The translations under genes were made by a program, and so were the position numbers. Below the pieces are notes generated by a model. It was not told the DNA's origin. It saw only the letters and a list, made by a program, of their open reading frames with translations, and searched no databases. Of a stretch of DNA of 64,000 nucleotides, positions 58,898 through 64,000 are shown piece by piece. This DNA comes from Natronobacterium gregoryi SP2. GTDB lineage: Archaea; Halobacteriota; Halobacteria; Halobacteriales; Natrialbaceae. The number at the start of each line of letters is the position of its first letter. The first letter of the stretch is position 1. The stretch lies in NCBI RefSeq assembly GCF_000230715.2, contig NC_019792.1:558001-622000 (forward strand). The letters run 5' to 3'.

Positions 58898-59281
58898 TTA
58901 GGCAACTTCCGACTGAACGAGCCAGGGCCTGATCGCCTGTAACACGGCGACAACGAGCTTCGACTCGGCTGCCCGAAGCCGCTGTGAGACGGCCGACTTC
59001 GAGATGTCGAGCTCCGCCGAGAGCTCCTCGAGTCCGGTTTCGCGGGGCTGTTCGTAATATCCTCGCGTATACGCCAGCTCGAGTGCCCGGAGCTGTTTCG
59101 TCGTGAGCGATCCGACGTCGACCTCGGCGACGTGGTCGTCGCTAGGATCGACGACCGCCATGCCCTGTGGATCGACCGTCGCCTCGAGTTCCGCCAGGTG
59201 GGTGAGAACCTCCTGGACCGAATCGATATCCGACACCTCGGTCGTGATTCGCAATCGATCTGCGTTCTCGAGTCCGGTCAT
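58898..59281 (-). CDS. HTH-10 (Bat-type) DNA-binding protein, short form
   Basis: 127 aa if ATG 59281 is used (ATG 59365 would give 155 aa). The C-terminus is the bacterio-opsin-activator-type HTH: LTTKQLRALELAYTRGYYEQPRETGLEELSAELDISKSAVSQRLRAAESKLV, with DISKSAVSQRLRAAE as recognition helix. The N-terminal part (RLRITTEVSDIDSVQEVLTHLAELEATVDPQG) is a small sensor domain shorter than in full Bat. Short forms regulate unknown targets. A TATA-like GATACAAAC lies about 24 nt before ATG 59281. Confidence 0.82.
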   Translation of the reverse strand: MTGLENADRLRITTEVSDIDSVQEVLTHLAELEATVDPQGMAVVDPSDDHVAEVDVGSLTTKQLRALELAYTRGYYEQPRETGLEELSAELDISKSAVSQRLRAAESKLVVAVLQAIRPWLVQSEVA

Positions 59282-59484
59282 TCGTGTGCACGACGGGTTT
59301 GTATCGCGTCGATCGATCGTAGTTGCGCTCGTGCTCTCACTCTCGAGCGATCTATCCGACCCCATTGCCGCGTTGCGTGACGTCGACGGGCCTGAATCAC
59401 CTGTGCGGCCATACTCGTACGGTCAGACTCCGTCACGCTCAGTGTCTCTCTTCATAATACAGCCAGGGGCCTGTCAACGGTGTA

Positions 59485-59586: not shown

Positions 59587-60492
59587 TCACTCGTCCTCGC
59601 TCGAGACCGTCGATTCGGTCGTTCGCTCGGGAGCGTCTCTGGGTCTGTCAGTGGTTCCGATGCGGTCGCTCGAGGGAACGTGGTTCTCGAGCCACGCCGA
59701 GATCGAGAAGCGGCCGACGAGGTGGCCGGAGAGAGCTACGCTGACGGCGGCCAGTCCGACCCCTGCGAGCACGTCGATCACCCAGTGGATGCCGAGGTAC
59801 ATCGTCGAAATCCCGATCGAGAGGGCGAAGATAGTTGCCAGGACTGCCCACGTCGGGTATATCCGACGGGTTCGGTAGGCCAGGAACGCGACGGTCGCCG
59901 ACAGCGAAGTGTGTAGCGAGGGGAAGACGTTCGTGTTGCGGTTGACCTGTCGGGTGAGATGCTGGTACTGCGGATACGTGTCGTACAGCAACGGCTGGAC
60001 GAGATCCGGCATGATGTTTCGCGGGCCGTAGGCGACGACGAGGGCGTAACAGCACAGTCCCAGCACGTAGTTGAGCGTGTAGGCGGTCAGCAGCTCCCGG
60101 AGCGGTCGCGTGTTCGACAGTGCGAAGTACGCGACGAGAGGGAACACGAGCAAGAAGACGTAACCGTAGATATAGATAAACGAGAAGTACGCCGTCAGTT
60201 CCGGCGTCGCCTGTGACTGCAGCCAGAGGATGACGTACTGCTCTACGTCGTAAATCAGCTCGGTGACGTGCCAGCCGATCATCAACGAGACGTCCGGAAC
60301 CCAGTCCCTGGCGACGCCGTTGAACAGCAAGACGAGTGCGAGAACGATCGTGATCGGGGCGGTCGCACGCACCCGGTCTCGCCACTCGAGTCGAGTGTCT
60401 CGGAGTCGGTACCGGCCGATGAGAACTACCGTCGAAACGGCAAGCATGAGTGTGACGACGGCGGTCAACTGGACGAGCACCTGGAGTAACAT
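59587..60492 (-). CDS. PAP2/AUR1-like membrane phosphatase or transferase, copy 1
   Basis: 301 aa, about six to seven membrane helices. Active-site motifs of the PAP2 superfamily: NTNVFPSLHTSLSATVAF (PSLHT, His) and STMYLGIHWVIDVLAG (H-W-x-x-D). The first motif K-x6-RP is not seen; instead the segment YGPRNIMPDL precedes, as in AUR1/inositol-phosphoceramide-synthase-like proteins (PAP2_3 type). It may hydrolyse or transfer a phosphate head group on lipids at the outer membrane face. The ATG overlaps the stop of the upstream substrate-binding protein gene in TGATG. Acidic C-terminal tail. Confidence 0.85.
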   Translation of the reverse strand: MLLQVLVQLTAVVTLMLAVSTVVLIGRYRLRDTRLEWRDRVRATAPITIVLALVLLFNGVARDWVPDVSLMIGWHVTELIYDVEQYVILWLQSQATPELTAYFSFIYIYGYVFLLVFPLVAYFALSNTRPLRELLTAYTLNYVLGLCCYALVVAYGPRNIMPDLVQPLLYDTYPQYQHLTRQVNRNTNVFPSLHTSLSATVAFLAYRTRRIYPTWAVLATIFALSIGISTMYLGIHWVIDVLAGVGLAAVSVALSGHLVGRFSISAWLENHVPSSDRIGTTDRPRDAPERTTESTVSSEDE

Positions 60493-62351
60493 CAGCGTCT
60501 CACCCGGAGTCGGCCGTCCGCGTCGTAGCTGAAGCCAGCCGACTCGAACGCGTCGCGTGCAGCGACGTCGTCGATTTCGCCGTCACTGCCGAGAAACGGC
60601 GCGGCAGGATCGTCACCGTCCCACGCGAGGGCGTCGGGAGTCCACTCCTCGGTGACCGGCACCGTGAGCGGCCTGGCATGGCCGTCGAAGACATCGTCGA
60701 CGAGCCAGGCCTCGTCGAGCAATCGGGCGACGATCCGCCGGAAGTGAGGATTACCAAACGGCGCTTTCCGGAAGTTGAACCCGACGTGGTAGAACGTCCG
60801 TGCCGGCGACTCGAGCAATTCCACGCCCTCGGTCTCGGCGGCGAGAGCGACCGTCTCGTCGACGACGTAGCTCTCGAGAGGGTCGGTCGTGACGTCCGCG
60901 TCGCCGTTCGAGACGATTTCGATGGCTGACGTGCTCCGGGGGTCGATCCGGACGCGGAACTCCTCGACGGTCGGTCCGGGGAGGTCGACGTCGTTCCGGA
61001 GCGTGAAGTGGTCGTCGTACCGTTGGAAGGTGACGTACTCGCGTTCGTTTCGGTCGACGAACTCGAAGGGTCCTGATCCGATCGCGGGAACGTTGTCCAG
61101 AACGACGGCGTCGGTCGTCCCATCGGCGACCTGTACTCCTGTGACGTCTGTCGACGCCGACCGTTCTCGCCAGACGTGTTCCGGGAGGATTGGAACCGCA
61201 AGCGCGCGTTCGGCGGCCGGTTCGCCGCCCGCGATCGGGAGTTCGATACGGGCCCCGTCGGCGTCGATTTCGTCGACGACGACTGGAGCGACGTGCCCTC
61301 GGTGACGCGGCGACGGTGTCGACACGCCGTCACCTCCCAGAGTCGTATCCACGAGAAACCGGTAGGTAAACTCGACGTCGGCCGGCGTGACCGGCTCTCC
61401 ATCGTGGAACCGACAGTCGTCTCGGAGTTCGACGGTCAGCGTTCCGCCGTCCTCGTTTTCCGCCCACTCCCAGGACTCGGCGAGCCACGGGTGATAGCGA
61501 GCGTCCGCTTTGCCGCCGTCAGCCAGTGGCGGGTCCCCCTCATCGTCGACCGTCCCTGCGGCCGGTGTGACTGCCAGCGGGTCGTAGAGCAGGCCAGTAA
61601 ACAGCCCGCGGTTGCGGTACTCGACAGACAGCGGGTTGAGGTTCCAGGACGGTCGCGGGTCCGTATGGACTGCCCGGAGTCGTTCGATCTCGCCACCTCC
61701 AGCTCCGAGATCGAGATAGCCCAGCGGCGTTCCGGGGTGGAACCTTCTCCAATCGTTGGCTCGATCGCTTCTGACGAGACGGTACTCCTCGGGCGCACAG
61801 ATCGGAACGAAAGGCTGGTGGGTCACGAACGCCTCGAGCGTCTCCGCGACTGCGTCCCGACGCTCGTCGCCGTCGGTCCGGCGCTGCATCTCGAGGAGGT
61901 CGTCGAACGCGAGGTCGGTAAATCCGAACGGATTCTGCCAGCCGGGTTCGTCCGCGTACGTGGAGTGTAGCGCCTCGTAGAGAAACGCCGGCTCGGTCGC
62001 CTCGGGATACCAGCCGACATAGAGGTCGAAGTCGTGGTTGACAAGCACCGCCCGGAGGAACTCGTCGCTGGCGAGTAACTCGATCGAGGCGTCGATCCCG
62101 ACGGCTTCGAGAGCGTCTCGAACTCTGCGAGTGAGTCGGATGCTCTCTCGATCGCCGTCTGACGGAAGCGTGGTGATCGTCACGGAGAGTGGCTCGAGTC
62201 CATCCCGGTTGACGGCACTGCGAACGTGGCGGAGACAGCCGCTGGTTGCGACGGCCAACCCGGTCGTGGCGAGCATCGTCCGACGGCTCGTTTCGCTTTC
62301 CAGGCTATCGACGGAGCCATCGGACGGTTCGGTGGAGGGAGGGCCTGACAT
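60492..62351 (-). CDS. Tat lipoprotein, family 5 (peptide/nickel) ABC substrate-binding protein, copy 1
   Basis: 619 aa. Signal: SRRTMLATTGLAVATSGC, a twin-arginine signal with lipobox Cys at about 39. The body is a family 5 solute-binding protein: LYVGWYPEATEPAFLYEALH, PLAVTPAAGTVDDEGDPPLADGG, WLAESWEWAENEDGGTLTVELRDDCRFHDGEPVTPADVEFTYRFL, and FYHVGFNFRKAPFGNPHFRRIVARLLDEAW near the end. Normally it would feed an ABC permease, but the next gene is PAP2 with a TGATG overlap and no permease or ATPase is present. 98 bp separate it from the upstream PAP2 copy. Confidence 0.88.
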   Translation of the reverse strand: MSGPPSTEPSDGSVDSLESETSRRTMLATTGLAVATSGCLRHVRSAVNRDGLEPLSVTITTLPSDGDRESIRLTRRVRDALEAVGIDASIELLASDEFLRAVLVNHDFDLYVGWYPEATEPAFLYEALHSTYADEPGWQNPFGFTDLAFDDLLEMQRRTDGDERRDAVAETLEAFVTHQPFVPICAPEEYRLVRSDRANDWRRFHPGTPLGYLDLGAGGGEIERLRAVHTDPRPSWNLNPLSVEYRNRGLFTGLLYDPLAVTPAAGTVDDEGDPPLADGGKADARYHPWLAESWEWAENEDGGTLTVELRDDCRFHDGEPVTPADVEFTYRFLVDTTLGGDGVSTPSPRHRGHVAPVVVDEIDADGARIELPIAGGEPAAERALAVPILPEHVWRERSASTDVTGVQVADGTTDAVVLDNVPAIGSGPFEFVDRNEREYVTFQRYDDHFTLRNDVDLPGPTVEEFRVRIDPRSTSAIEIVSNGDADVTTDPLESYVVDETVALAAETEGVELLESPARTFYHVGFNFRKAPFGNPHFRRIVARLLDEAWLVDDVFDGHARPLTVPVTEEWTPDALAWDGDDPAAPFLGSDGEIDDVAARDAFESAGFSYDADGRLRVRR

Positions 62352-62449
62352 TTCGGGTTCGTTCGTTTCTCAGTTCGCCGGTGGTGGTATAACAGTATTG
62401 TGCTGGCTCACACGTAGCGAGGATCTGTTCCAGCCGTGACGGTCACGGG

Positions 62450-63250
62450 TTACCCAGCGTTTCGACTGTCGACGAGGGCCATCGAGAGAGCGACACACCC
62501 GGCTGCCAGGGCGATGCCGGCGACGACATCGATCACCCAGTGGAATCCGAGGTACATCGTCGAGATGACGACTGAGAGTGCGATAACGACGGCGACGGGA
62601 GTCCAGCGGGGATACTGCTCCCGAGTCCGGTAAGCGAAGATGGCGACAGTCACCGACAGTGACGTGTGTAGCGAGGGAAAGACGTTCGTACTGCTATTGA
62701 GTTGGCGGGTGAAGTGGTGATACTCCGGGCTGGCGTCGTATACCATCGTGCCCGCGAGTAGGTCGGGCATCACGTTTCGGGGTCCGAGGGCGATGACGAC
62801 CAGATAGAAGACGAGCCCGATCGTATAGTTCAACGAGTACGCCGCCAGAAGCTGTCGAAAATAGATGGTGTTCGACAACGCGAAGTAGGCGATTCCAGGG
62901 AAAATAAGCAGGAAAGCGTAACCGTAGACGTAGATCGCCGAGAAATACGCCGTCAGCTCCGGGCTCGCGACCGACTGGAAGACGAGGACGAACTCCCCCT
63001 CGAGCTCGTAGAACAGCCAGGTGAGCTGAATCCCGATCGCATCGGAAATCGTCGGTCCCTCCTGGCGCATGACGCGGTTGATTCCGAGCACAACCAGGAG
63101 AACGACGAGCAACGGTCCGCTTTCCCGGAACCGCGATCGCCACTCCATCTGTAGCGTTGCGAGTCGACGACGACCGACGAACGTCGCCACCGCGACCGGG
63201 AGCAGGATACCGACCACGGCGACGACGCGAATCAGGACATCGGTCAACAT
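62450..63250 (-). CDS. PAP2/AUR1-like membrane protein, copy 2
   Basis: 266 aa, clearly paralogous to the copy at 59587 along its length: SPELTAYFSAIYVYGYAFLLIFPGIAYFALSN, GPRNVMPDL, NVFPSLHTSLSVTVAIFAYRTREQYP, and STMYLGFHWVIDVVAGIALAA. Both His and Asp active-site positions are kept. It lacks the acidic C-terminal tail of copy 1. It begins 3 bp after the stop of the upstream substrate-binding protein, so it is co-translated. About half of aligned residues appear identical by eye. Confidence 0.85.
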   Translation of the reverse strand: MLTDVLIRVVAVVGILLPVAVATFVGRRRLATLQMEWRSRFRESGPLLVVLLVVLGINRVMRQEGPTISDAIGIQLTWLFYELEGEFVLVFQSVASPELTAYFSAIYVYGYAFLLIFPGIAYFALSNTIYFRQLLAAYSLNYTIGLVFYLVVIALGPRNVMPDLLAGTMVYDASPEYHHFTRQLNSSTNVFPSLHTSLSVTVAIFAYRTREQYPRWTPVAVVIALSVVISTMYLGFHWVIDVVAGIALAAGCVALSMALVDSRNAG

Positions 63251-63253
63251 CGT

Positions 63254-64000
63254 CTAGTACTCCCATACCAGCCGCCCGTCTTCGTCGGAGCGCAGTCCCG
63301 CCCGCTCGAACGCCGATCGTGCCGTCTCGAGGTCGAGGTCACCGTCGTTGCCGGCAAAGTCGTCATCGCCGTCCCACGCGAGTGCCGCGGGAGTCCACGC
63401 GTCGGGAACCGGCGTCGAGATTGGAACTGCGTCACCGTCGAAGCCGTTCTCGGCGAGCGTAGACTTGTCCAGCAACCGGGTGATCGCACGGCGCAACTCG
63501 ACGCCGTCCTCGTCACAGGGAGTCCGACGGGTGTTGAACCCGAGGTAGTAGAACGTCCTCGAAGGTTGAGCGGCGTGTTCGACGACGTCGTCTGCCGGAA
63601 CACGATTCACCGCGTACGCCTGGATCGGCGAAGCCGTTACGTCGGCGTCGCCGTCTGCGATCCGTTCGACCATGGAGGCGCTGTTGGGATCGACTTCGAA
63701 GTGGAGTTCGACGGCCGGTGGAGTGGCGGCTGCTGCCGACTCCTCGCCGTCTCCGCCCCGGACAGCGAAGTGCTCCTCGTGGCGCTCGAGAGTGAGCGAG
63801 TCACGTTTCGACCGATTCGCGAGCCGATAGACCCCACTTCCGACGGGGTCGACGTCGCCGGTGACGGGCTCCCGGTGGCCCTGCGGGGGAGACGACCGAT
63901 GCCCGCGTTCCGACGCGAGCCGCTCCTGCCAGACGTGTTCGGCCAAGATCGGAACAGTCAGTGCACGGCCAGCAACAGCCTCGGCCGCCTCGAGCGAAAT
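63254..64000 (-). CDS. ABC substrate-binding protein, copy 2 (N-terminal part outside window)
   Basis: At least 248 residues are in the window; the frame is open to the right edge. It aligns with the C-terminal part of copy 1: ILAEHVWQERLASERG, DADVTASPIQAYAV, SRTFYYLGFNTRRTP, RRAITRLLDKSTLAENGFDGDAVPI and DAWTPAALAWDGDDDF. Sequence is diverged, so the duplication is old. Followed after 3 bp by its own PAP2 gene. Confidence 0.85.
   Translation of the reverse strand: MSLEAAEAVAGRALTVPILAEHVWQERLASERGHRSSPPQGHREPVTGDVDPVGSGVYRLANRSKRDSLTLERHEEHFAVRGGDGEESAAAATPPAVELHFEVDPNSASMVERIADGDADVTASPIQAYAVNRVPADDVVEHAAQPSRTFYYLGFNTRRTPCDEDGVELRRAITRLLDKSTLAENGFDGDAVPISTPVPDAWTPAALAWDGDDDFAGNDGDLDLETARSAFERAGLRSDEDGRLVWEY

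Follow-up and report, generated by a model that had tools for sequence, protein, structure and literature searches.

The window analysed here is a stretch of 64,000 nucleotides from Natronobacterium gregoryi SP2 (NC_019792.1, positions 558,001 to 622,000), part of the single contig C1 that makes up the 3.79-Mb genome. At its end, on the minus strand, lie two tandem copies of a gene pair encoding a twin-arginine translocation (Tat) lipoprotein of the substrate-binding protein (SBP) type and a PAP2_3/Aur1-like membrane enzyme, for which we computed the anatomy of the locus, a circular permutation of the SBP, co-occurrence, co-duplication, a conserved catalytic triad and a private promoter (Table 1). 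Read along the minus strand, SBP2 is followed after 3 bp by PAP2 (second copy), after a further 98 bp by SBP1 and, through a 1-bp TGATG overlap, by PAP1. Open reading frames, frames and couplings were all as an earlier note, made from the sequence alone, had described them. The note had also seen no transporter genes next door, and this held beyond the window: SBP2 runs to completion past position 64000, where its neighbour on the opposite strand is, by sequence, an MscS-like channel, and the inspected region contains neither a permease nor an ATPase gene, so that an ordinary transporter operon was rejected.

A third, remote SBP–PAP2 pair is located in the same genome (C1:8956-10758 and C1:10878-11753), and no permease or ATPase gene adjoins any of the three pairs. 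Pairwise comparison of copies 1 and 2 gave 44% identity for the SBPs and 55% for the enzymes, copy 3 being equidistant from both (34% and 44%, respectively), and the pattern of identities runs parallel in the two partners. The third pair had escaped the earlier note, as had the circular permutation, the promoter element private to the tandem pairs and protein X, all described below.

Table 1. Coordinates of the SBP–PAP2 pairs and their features (window positions unless marked C1).
Feature	Position	Strand	Description
PAP1	59587..60492	-	PAP2_3/Aur1-like multi-spanning membrane enzyme, 301 aa
PAP1 H236 to D240 codons	59773..59787	-	HWxxD, second catalytic His and Asp; H236 and D240 conserved in 48/48
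PAP1 H194 codon	59911..59913	-	First catalytic His, PSLH motif; conserved in 48/48; coordinate computed from the open reading frame
SBP1	60492..62351	-	619-aa Tat lipoprotein of the SBP_bac_5 family, circularly permuted
SBP1 C-terminal part, residues 216-619	60495..61706	-	Corresponds to N-terminal part of canonical SBP
SBP1 N-terminal part, about residues 53-215	61707..62195	-	Corresponds to C-terminal part of canonical SBP
SBP1 lipobox Cys39 codon	62235..62237	-	Preceded by RR at residues 23-24; Cys invariant in family alignment A3
Promoter element ACAATACTGTTATA before SBP1	62388..62401	-	Palindrome-like CAATAYTG and TATA-like TTATA
PAP2 (second copy)	62450..63250	-	PAP2_3/Aur1-like enzyme, 266 aa
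SBP2	63254..65035 (window-equivalent)	-	Circularly permuted Tat lipoprotein, 593 aa; window holds 3' part 63254..64000
Second exact copy of ACAATACTGTTATA, before SBP2	C1:623061-623074, outside window		Exact-match search

All three SBPs of the genome belong to the SBP_bac_5 family (PF00496), with 136.6, 157.7 and 130.4 bits against a gathering cut-off of 32.4 (E = 1.6e-39 and 5.8e-46 for the two in the window), and the N-terminal RR motif and lipobox are kept in 112 of 114 SBP homologues. The halves of the protein do not follow the canonical order, as the N-terminal part matches positions 278-364 of the PF00496 profile and the C-terminal part positions 2-284; in SBP1, residues 53-130 align with profile positions 287-363 and residues 286-613 with 2-284. 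The family profile A3 gave the same picture against AppA, its N-terminal part (39-186) matching AppA 351-495 and its C-terminal part AppA 44-316. An AlphaFold2 model of SBP1 (predicted local distance difference test score, pLDDT, 86.7; predicted template modelling score, pTM, 0.85) retained the two-lobed fold. Residues 216-619 of this model superimposed on AppA 18-357 with Z 21.6 and 3.0 Å over 331 residues, and the structural alignment ends at AppA 357, where the model itself ends at its C-terminus. Profile order and predicted structure alike mark the SBP as a peptide/nickel-type SBP that has undergone natural circular permutation. By eye, the alpha-amino-binding Asp of DppA seems to be lost, a point on which no conclusion here is based.

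The two enzymes of the window match PAP2_3 (PF14378) with E = 3e-20 and 9e-18, and the three enzymes of the genome score 73.2, 65.1 and 63.1 bits, well above the cut-off of 27. For the AlphaFold2 model of PAP1 (pLDDT 91, pTM 0.86), the nearest folds were inositol phosphorylceramide (IPC) synthase (9vj4, Z 18.3), Aur1-Kei1 (9ivc, Z 17.1) and LpxE (6ebu, Z 16.4); as neighbours in this list lie only about one Z unit apart, the ranking is not sharp. Profile and fold thus bear out the earlier designation as a PAP2/AUR1-like membrane enzyme. The NCBIfam equivalog for IPC synthase/Aur1 fell far short of its cut-off (17.7 vs 480 bits), and the models for PgpB and undecaprenyl-diphosphatase score weakly on the PAP2 enzymes. 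PAP2 lipid phosphatases carry KX6RP as their C1 motif and SRX5HX3D as their C3 motif. Among 48 PAP2 homologues, the His-His-Asp triad typical of PAP2_3 (H194, H236, D240) is invariant, and position 230, the place of the usual C3 Arg, is Thr in all 48, so that the PgpB-type C3 Arg is lacking. PAP1 further exhibits Arg-rich loops at residues 26-40 and 208-215 as well as a basic C-terminus. Taken with the positive-inside rule, the Arg-rich loops place the catalytic loops, by prediction, on the outer face and hence on the same side as the lipoprotein, which suggests that the enzyme works facing outside.

To place the pair in a wider context, 145 genomes of the haloarchaeal class were sampled. Of these, 94 contain the PAP2 subfamily and 93 the SBP, the two sets differing by one genome (Fisher p ~1e-38, relatedness ignored). 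Out of 134 SBP matches, 116 have a PAP2 gene directly downstream, 15 represent the second SBP of SBP-PAP2-SBP arrays and three are unlinked, while a similarity search using PAP2 only returned 76 named loci, each of which has a co-oriented SBP gene immediately before that of PAP2. SBP–PAP2 adjacency is far beyond chance. PAP2 relatives without an SBP scored lower than nearly all paired ones; the paired enzymes therefore look like a subfamily of their own. In several genera, SBP and PAP2 are present or absent together from species to species. SBP-PAP2-SBP arrays occur in Natrinema-type loci (L042-L053, L055, L056 and L066, with the exception of L047 and L054), in which the PAP2 gene of one copy seems to have been lost and both SBPs retained. 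In three plasmid loci that we viewed, no permease or ATPase is annotated beside the pair, and a search of the open-access literature found no paper on it.

The two partners have also evolved together. Over 150 pairs, patristic distances of SBP and PAP2 correlate with r = 0.914, compared with 0.15 for the best of 500 permutations; 50 supported splits are common to both trees, and the nearest-copy label agrees in 146 of 150 pairs. Since the tandem copies fall into matching clades of both trees, we concluded that the pair was duplicated as a unit. Adjacency across haloarchaea had been set as a check beforehand by the earlier note, together with congruence of the SBP and PAP2 trees, and both were found, adjacency being widespread (all 76 loci, and 131 of the 134 SBPs near a PAP2). 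Its proposal that the partners diverged together by old co-duplication agrees with the three pairs of the genome, the copy labels and the matching clades.

The palindrome-like and TATA-like parts of the element before the SBP genes make it probable that every pair is driven by a promoter of its own, perhaps under a dedicated regulator. Exact matches to the pattern RCAATAYTGTTATA in the genome are limited to the sites before SBP1 and SBP2, and within genes, taken as a control, the element is never approached more closely than by five mismatches. When up to two mismatches are allowed, it is found ahead of 68 of the 150 SBPs; the listed examples are Natrialbaceae. The lone one-mismatch site of the genome lies at C1:1098744-1098757 (ACAATATTGATATA). 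A HTH_10 gene directly downstream of PAP1 (58898-59365) was rejected as a conserved regulator, having a relative nearby in just 3 of 133 loci. By eye, the third pair is flanked by a divergent CetZ/FtsZ-like gene on one side and a photolyase-like gene on the other (L006 2472-8220), and its surroundings are similar in several Natrialbaceae.

Permuted SBP_bac_5 proteins also occur away from PAP2. N. gregoryi itself encodes one at C1:1124585-1126237 (L136 6520-8241) with two permease genes behind it; further examples were located in L137-L142, and Dpp/Opp-like permease genes follow in L136, L137, L139, L141 and L142. Other haloarchaea encode permuted SBPs as well. Permutation is thus a property of a wider family. 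Outside the order of the window's host, a permuted SBP lies inside a full ATP-binding cassette (ABC) operon on a plasmid of the alphaproteobacterium Nitratireductor (L179 5839-7482), and another accompanies ABC operon genes in genome G303 of the host's own phylum (L157 4730-6472), where the permutation may be independent. The remaining listed matches from outside the order cover just the piece expected for SBPs of canonical order. In the SBP tree, in which one SBP was left unclassified as to half order, the PAP2-linked clade has a support of 100 and its grouping with permuted importers one of only 58, so that the permutation may have arisen once or more than once. As the permuted relatives work in ordinary importers, the PAP2-linked clade looks recruited away from transport, and by its sequence relationships it likely derives from an importer SBP.

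A third gene accompanies the pair outside Natrialbaceae. In 16 non-Natrialbaceae loci, the gene for protein X lies upstream, 62-186 bp from the pair and on the same strand. The composition of X points to a single hydrophobic segment at the N-terminus, an ectodomain and membrane segments at the C-terminus. It was found in 87 of the 145 genomes, all of them SBP-positive (Fisher p ~5e-33, uncorrected for relatedness), so that its phylogenetic profile is nested inside that of the SBP–PAP2 pair; in N. gregoryi it lies apart from the pairs (C1:1175781-1177163; L159 5773-7170). Searches gave no match in Pfam and no convincing one in the PDB. LssY_C (PF14067) was rejected as its identity, the best matches inside X (G004 and G034) reaching 18.6 and 18.2 bits at a cut-off of 25, which we take as a hint only of a relation, and a Sinorhizobium tblastn match was dropped because the reading frames at that locus include no relative of X. 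From its distribution, X is probably a third component of the SBP–PAP2 system. The non-Natrialbaceae pairs often have two further neighbours, an arylsulfotransferase-like gene and one for a PMT_2-type glycosyltransferase; plasmid pHG2 of Haloferax gibbonsii carries a cluster of arylsulfotransferase-like, glycosyltransferase-like, X, SBP and PAP2 genes (L181 1958-8409), and L182 holds the same set with X truncated. Both were rejected as core parts, occurring in 24 (glycosyltransferase) and 68 (arylsulfotransferase) of the 145 genomes, also without the pair, and being absent from N. gregoryi.

With moderate confidence, and on the basis of sequence and models, we propose that the SBP is a repurposed accessory of an enzyme that acts on lipids at the outer face, either as a phospho-group transferase or as a phosphatase. 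The two proteins of each pair would together form a device on the outside of the membrane. The SBP clade appears to have moved out of ABC transport and into the service of a membrane enzyme. That enzyme would be of the lipid phospho-group transferase type (the fold of IPC synthase/Aur1, LpxE and PgpB) and, acting on an archaeal or polyprenyl lipid, would transfer or remove a phospho-head group. Most likely, the SBP would bind a soluble or lipid head group and present it to the enzyme, or gate the enzyme on binding; alternatively, it may act as a sensor of the head group. The physical interaction of SBP and PAP2, the direction of the reaction, its substrate and the role of X are what we infer here. 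A bolder version, in which X, the permuted SBP and the PAP2_3 transferase form a three-component lipid-remodelling system of the outer face, with the SBP as head-group donor or gating subunit and a new archaeal product, is put forward tentatively and may well prove wrong. Several observations weigh against the proposed accessory role. SBPs in G033, G140 and G135 have no adjoining PAP2, and Natrinema holds two SBPs around a single PAP2, so that strict one-to-one pairing is not required. PgpB, a phosphatase, has the best sequence-profile score although the fold comparison ranks transferases first. Furthermore, 13 supported splits of the SBP tree are contradicted by supported splits of the PAP tree, and tree congruence is inflated in part by shared species history, on which, however, the paralogue agreement depends much less than the correlation.

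The retained two-lobed fold would also suit a scavenging role, in which PAP2 removes phosphate from an organophosphate or lipid outside the cell, while the SBP captures the product and passes it in trans to one of the Dpp/Opp permeases encoded elsewhere. The genome indeed has further SBP_bac_5 genes, at least one of them followed by permease genes, and the closest relatives of the clade include importer SBPs with adjoining permeases. We nevertheless regard this as unlikely, although pairing in trans is conceivable: no permease was seen beside the pairs of this genome or in the annotated loci viewed, the association with PAP2 is ancient and near-exclusive, and the co-occurring third gene encodes the membrane protein X, no known transporter part.

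Neighbouring genes could instead point to surface glycans, with PAP2 recycling their carriers as a phosphatase of polyprenyl (dolichyl) pyrophosphate or of lipid phosphate, and the SBP serving only as a sensor or regulator. PAP2 domains are known to act in this process (PMC9876793), and the frequent PMT_2-type glycosyltransferase and arylsulfotransferase-like neighbours as well as the weak PgpB and undecaprenyl-diphosphatase scores are in line with it. The invariant Thr in place of the phosphate-binding Arg of the phosphatase C3 motif argues against such an activity, and neither neighbour is core. Moreover, surface glycosylation is general in haloarchaea, yet one third of those sampled lack the SBP–PAP2 module. 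Carrier recycling therefore appears improbable to us. Operon economy, finally, could explain the shared promoter and the overlap if the genes are simply transcribed together, have no functional relation and have stayed side by side through chance and recent shared ancestry; given a co-occurrence that spans many families, joint presence and absence inside genera and three co-duplicated pairs, we consider this very improbable.

If the SBP does serve the PAP2 enzyme, haloarchaea would provide a widespread archaeal case in which parts of a transporter have been turned to the service of lipid enzymes, a conserved candidate for as yet unassigned lipid chemistry at the outer face and, in X, a candidate third partner. 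The enzyme resembles Aur1/IPC synthase and PAP2_3 proteins in its nearest folds (9vj4, 9ivc) and its triad, whereas identity is limited to 14-16% and its partner is an SBP where that of Aur1 is Kei1; we know of no ceramide in haloarchaea. With the SBP_bac_5/cluster C proteins (AppA 1xoc, DppA, NikA), the SBP shares the two-lobed fold and a Pfam score above cut-off, but it is circularly permuted, lacks a permease and ATPase and is tied to PAP2. Circularly permuted cluster-C binding proteins thus exist as a family, labelled by automatic annotation merely as 'ABC transporter substrate-binding protein'. Natural circular permutation of a lipid-anchored SBP is known from TpMglB-2 of Treponema pallidum, which differs as a Type I/cluster B sugar binder of another fold class and is probably part of an ABC transporter (PMC4990184). 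The closest functional precedents are the mycobacterial SBP-like lipoproteins LpqW (PMC3229680) and the transporter-less LpqZ and FecB, which bind the envelope glycosyltransferases AftA and AftB, respectively (PMC12802301). These are bacterial, their partners are glycosyltransferases instead of PAP2, and neither tight co-encoded pairs nor circular permutation are known for them from these sources; what they have in common with the proposed haloarchaeal system is an SBP-like lipoprotein without a transporter that serves a membrane enzyme in the synthesis of envelope lipids or glycans.

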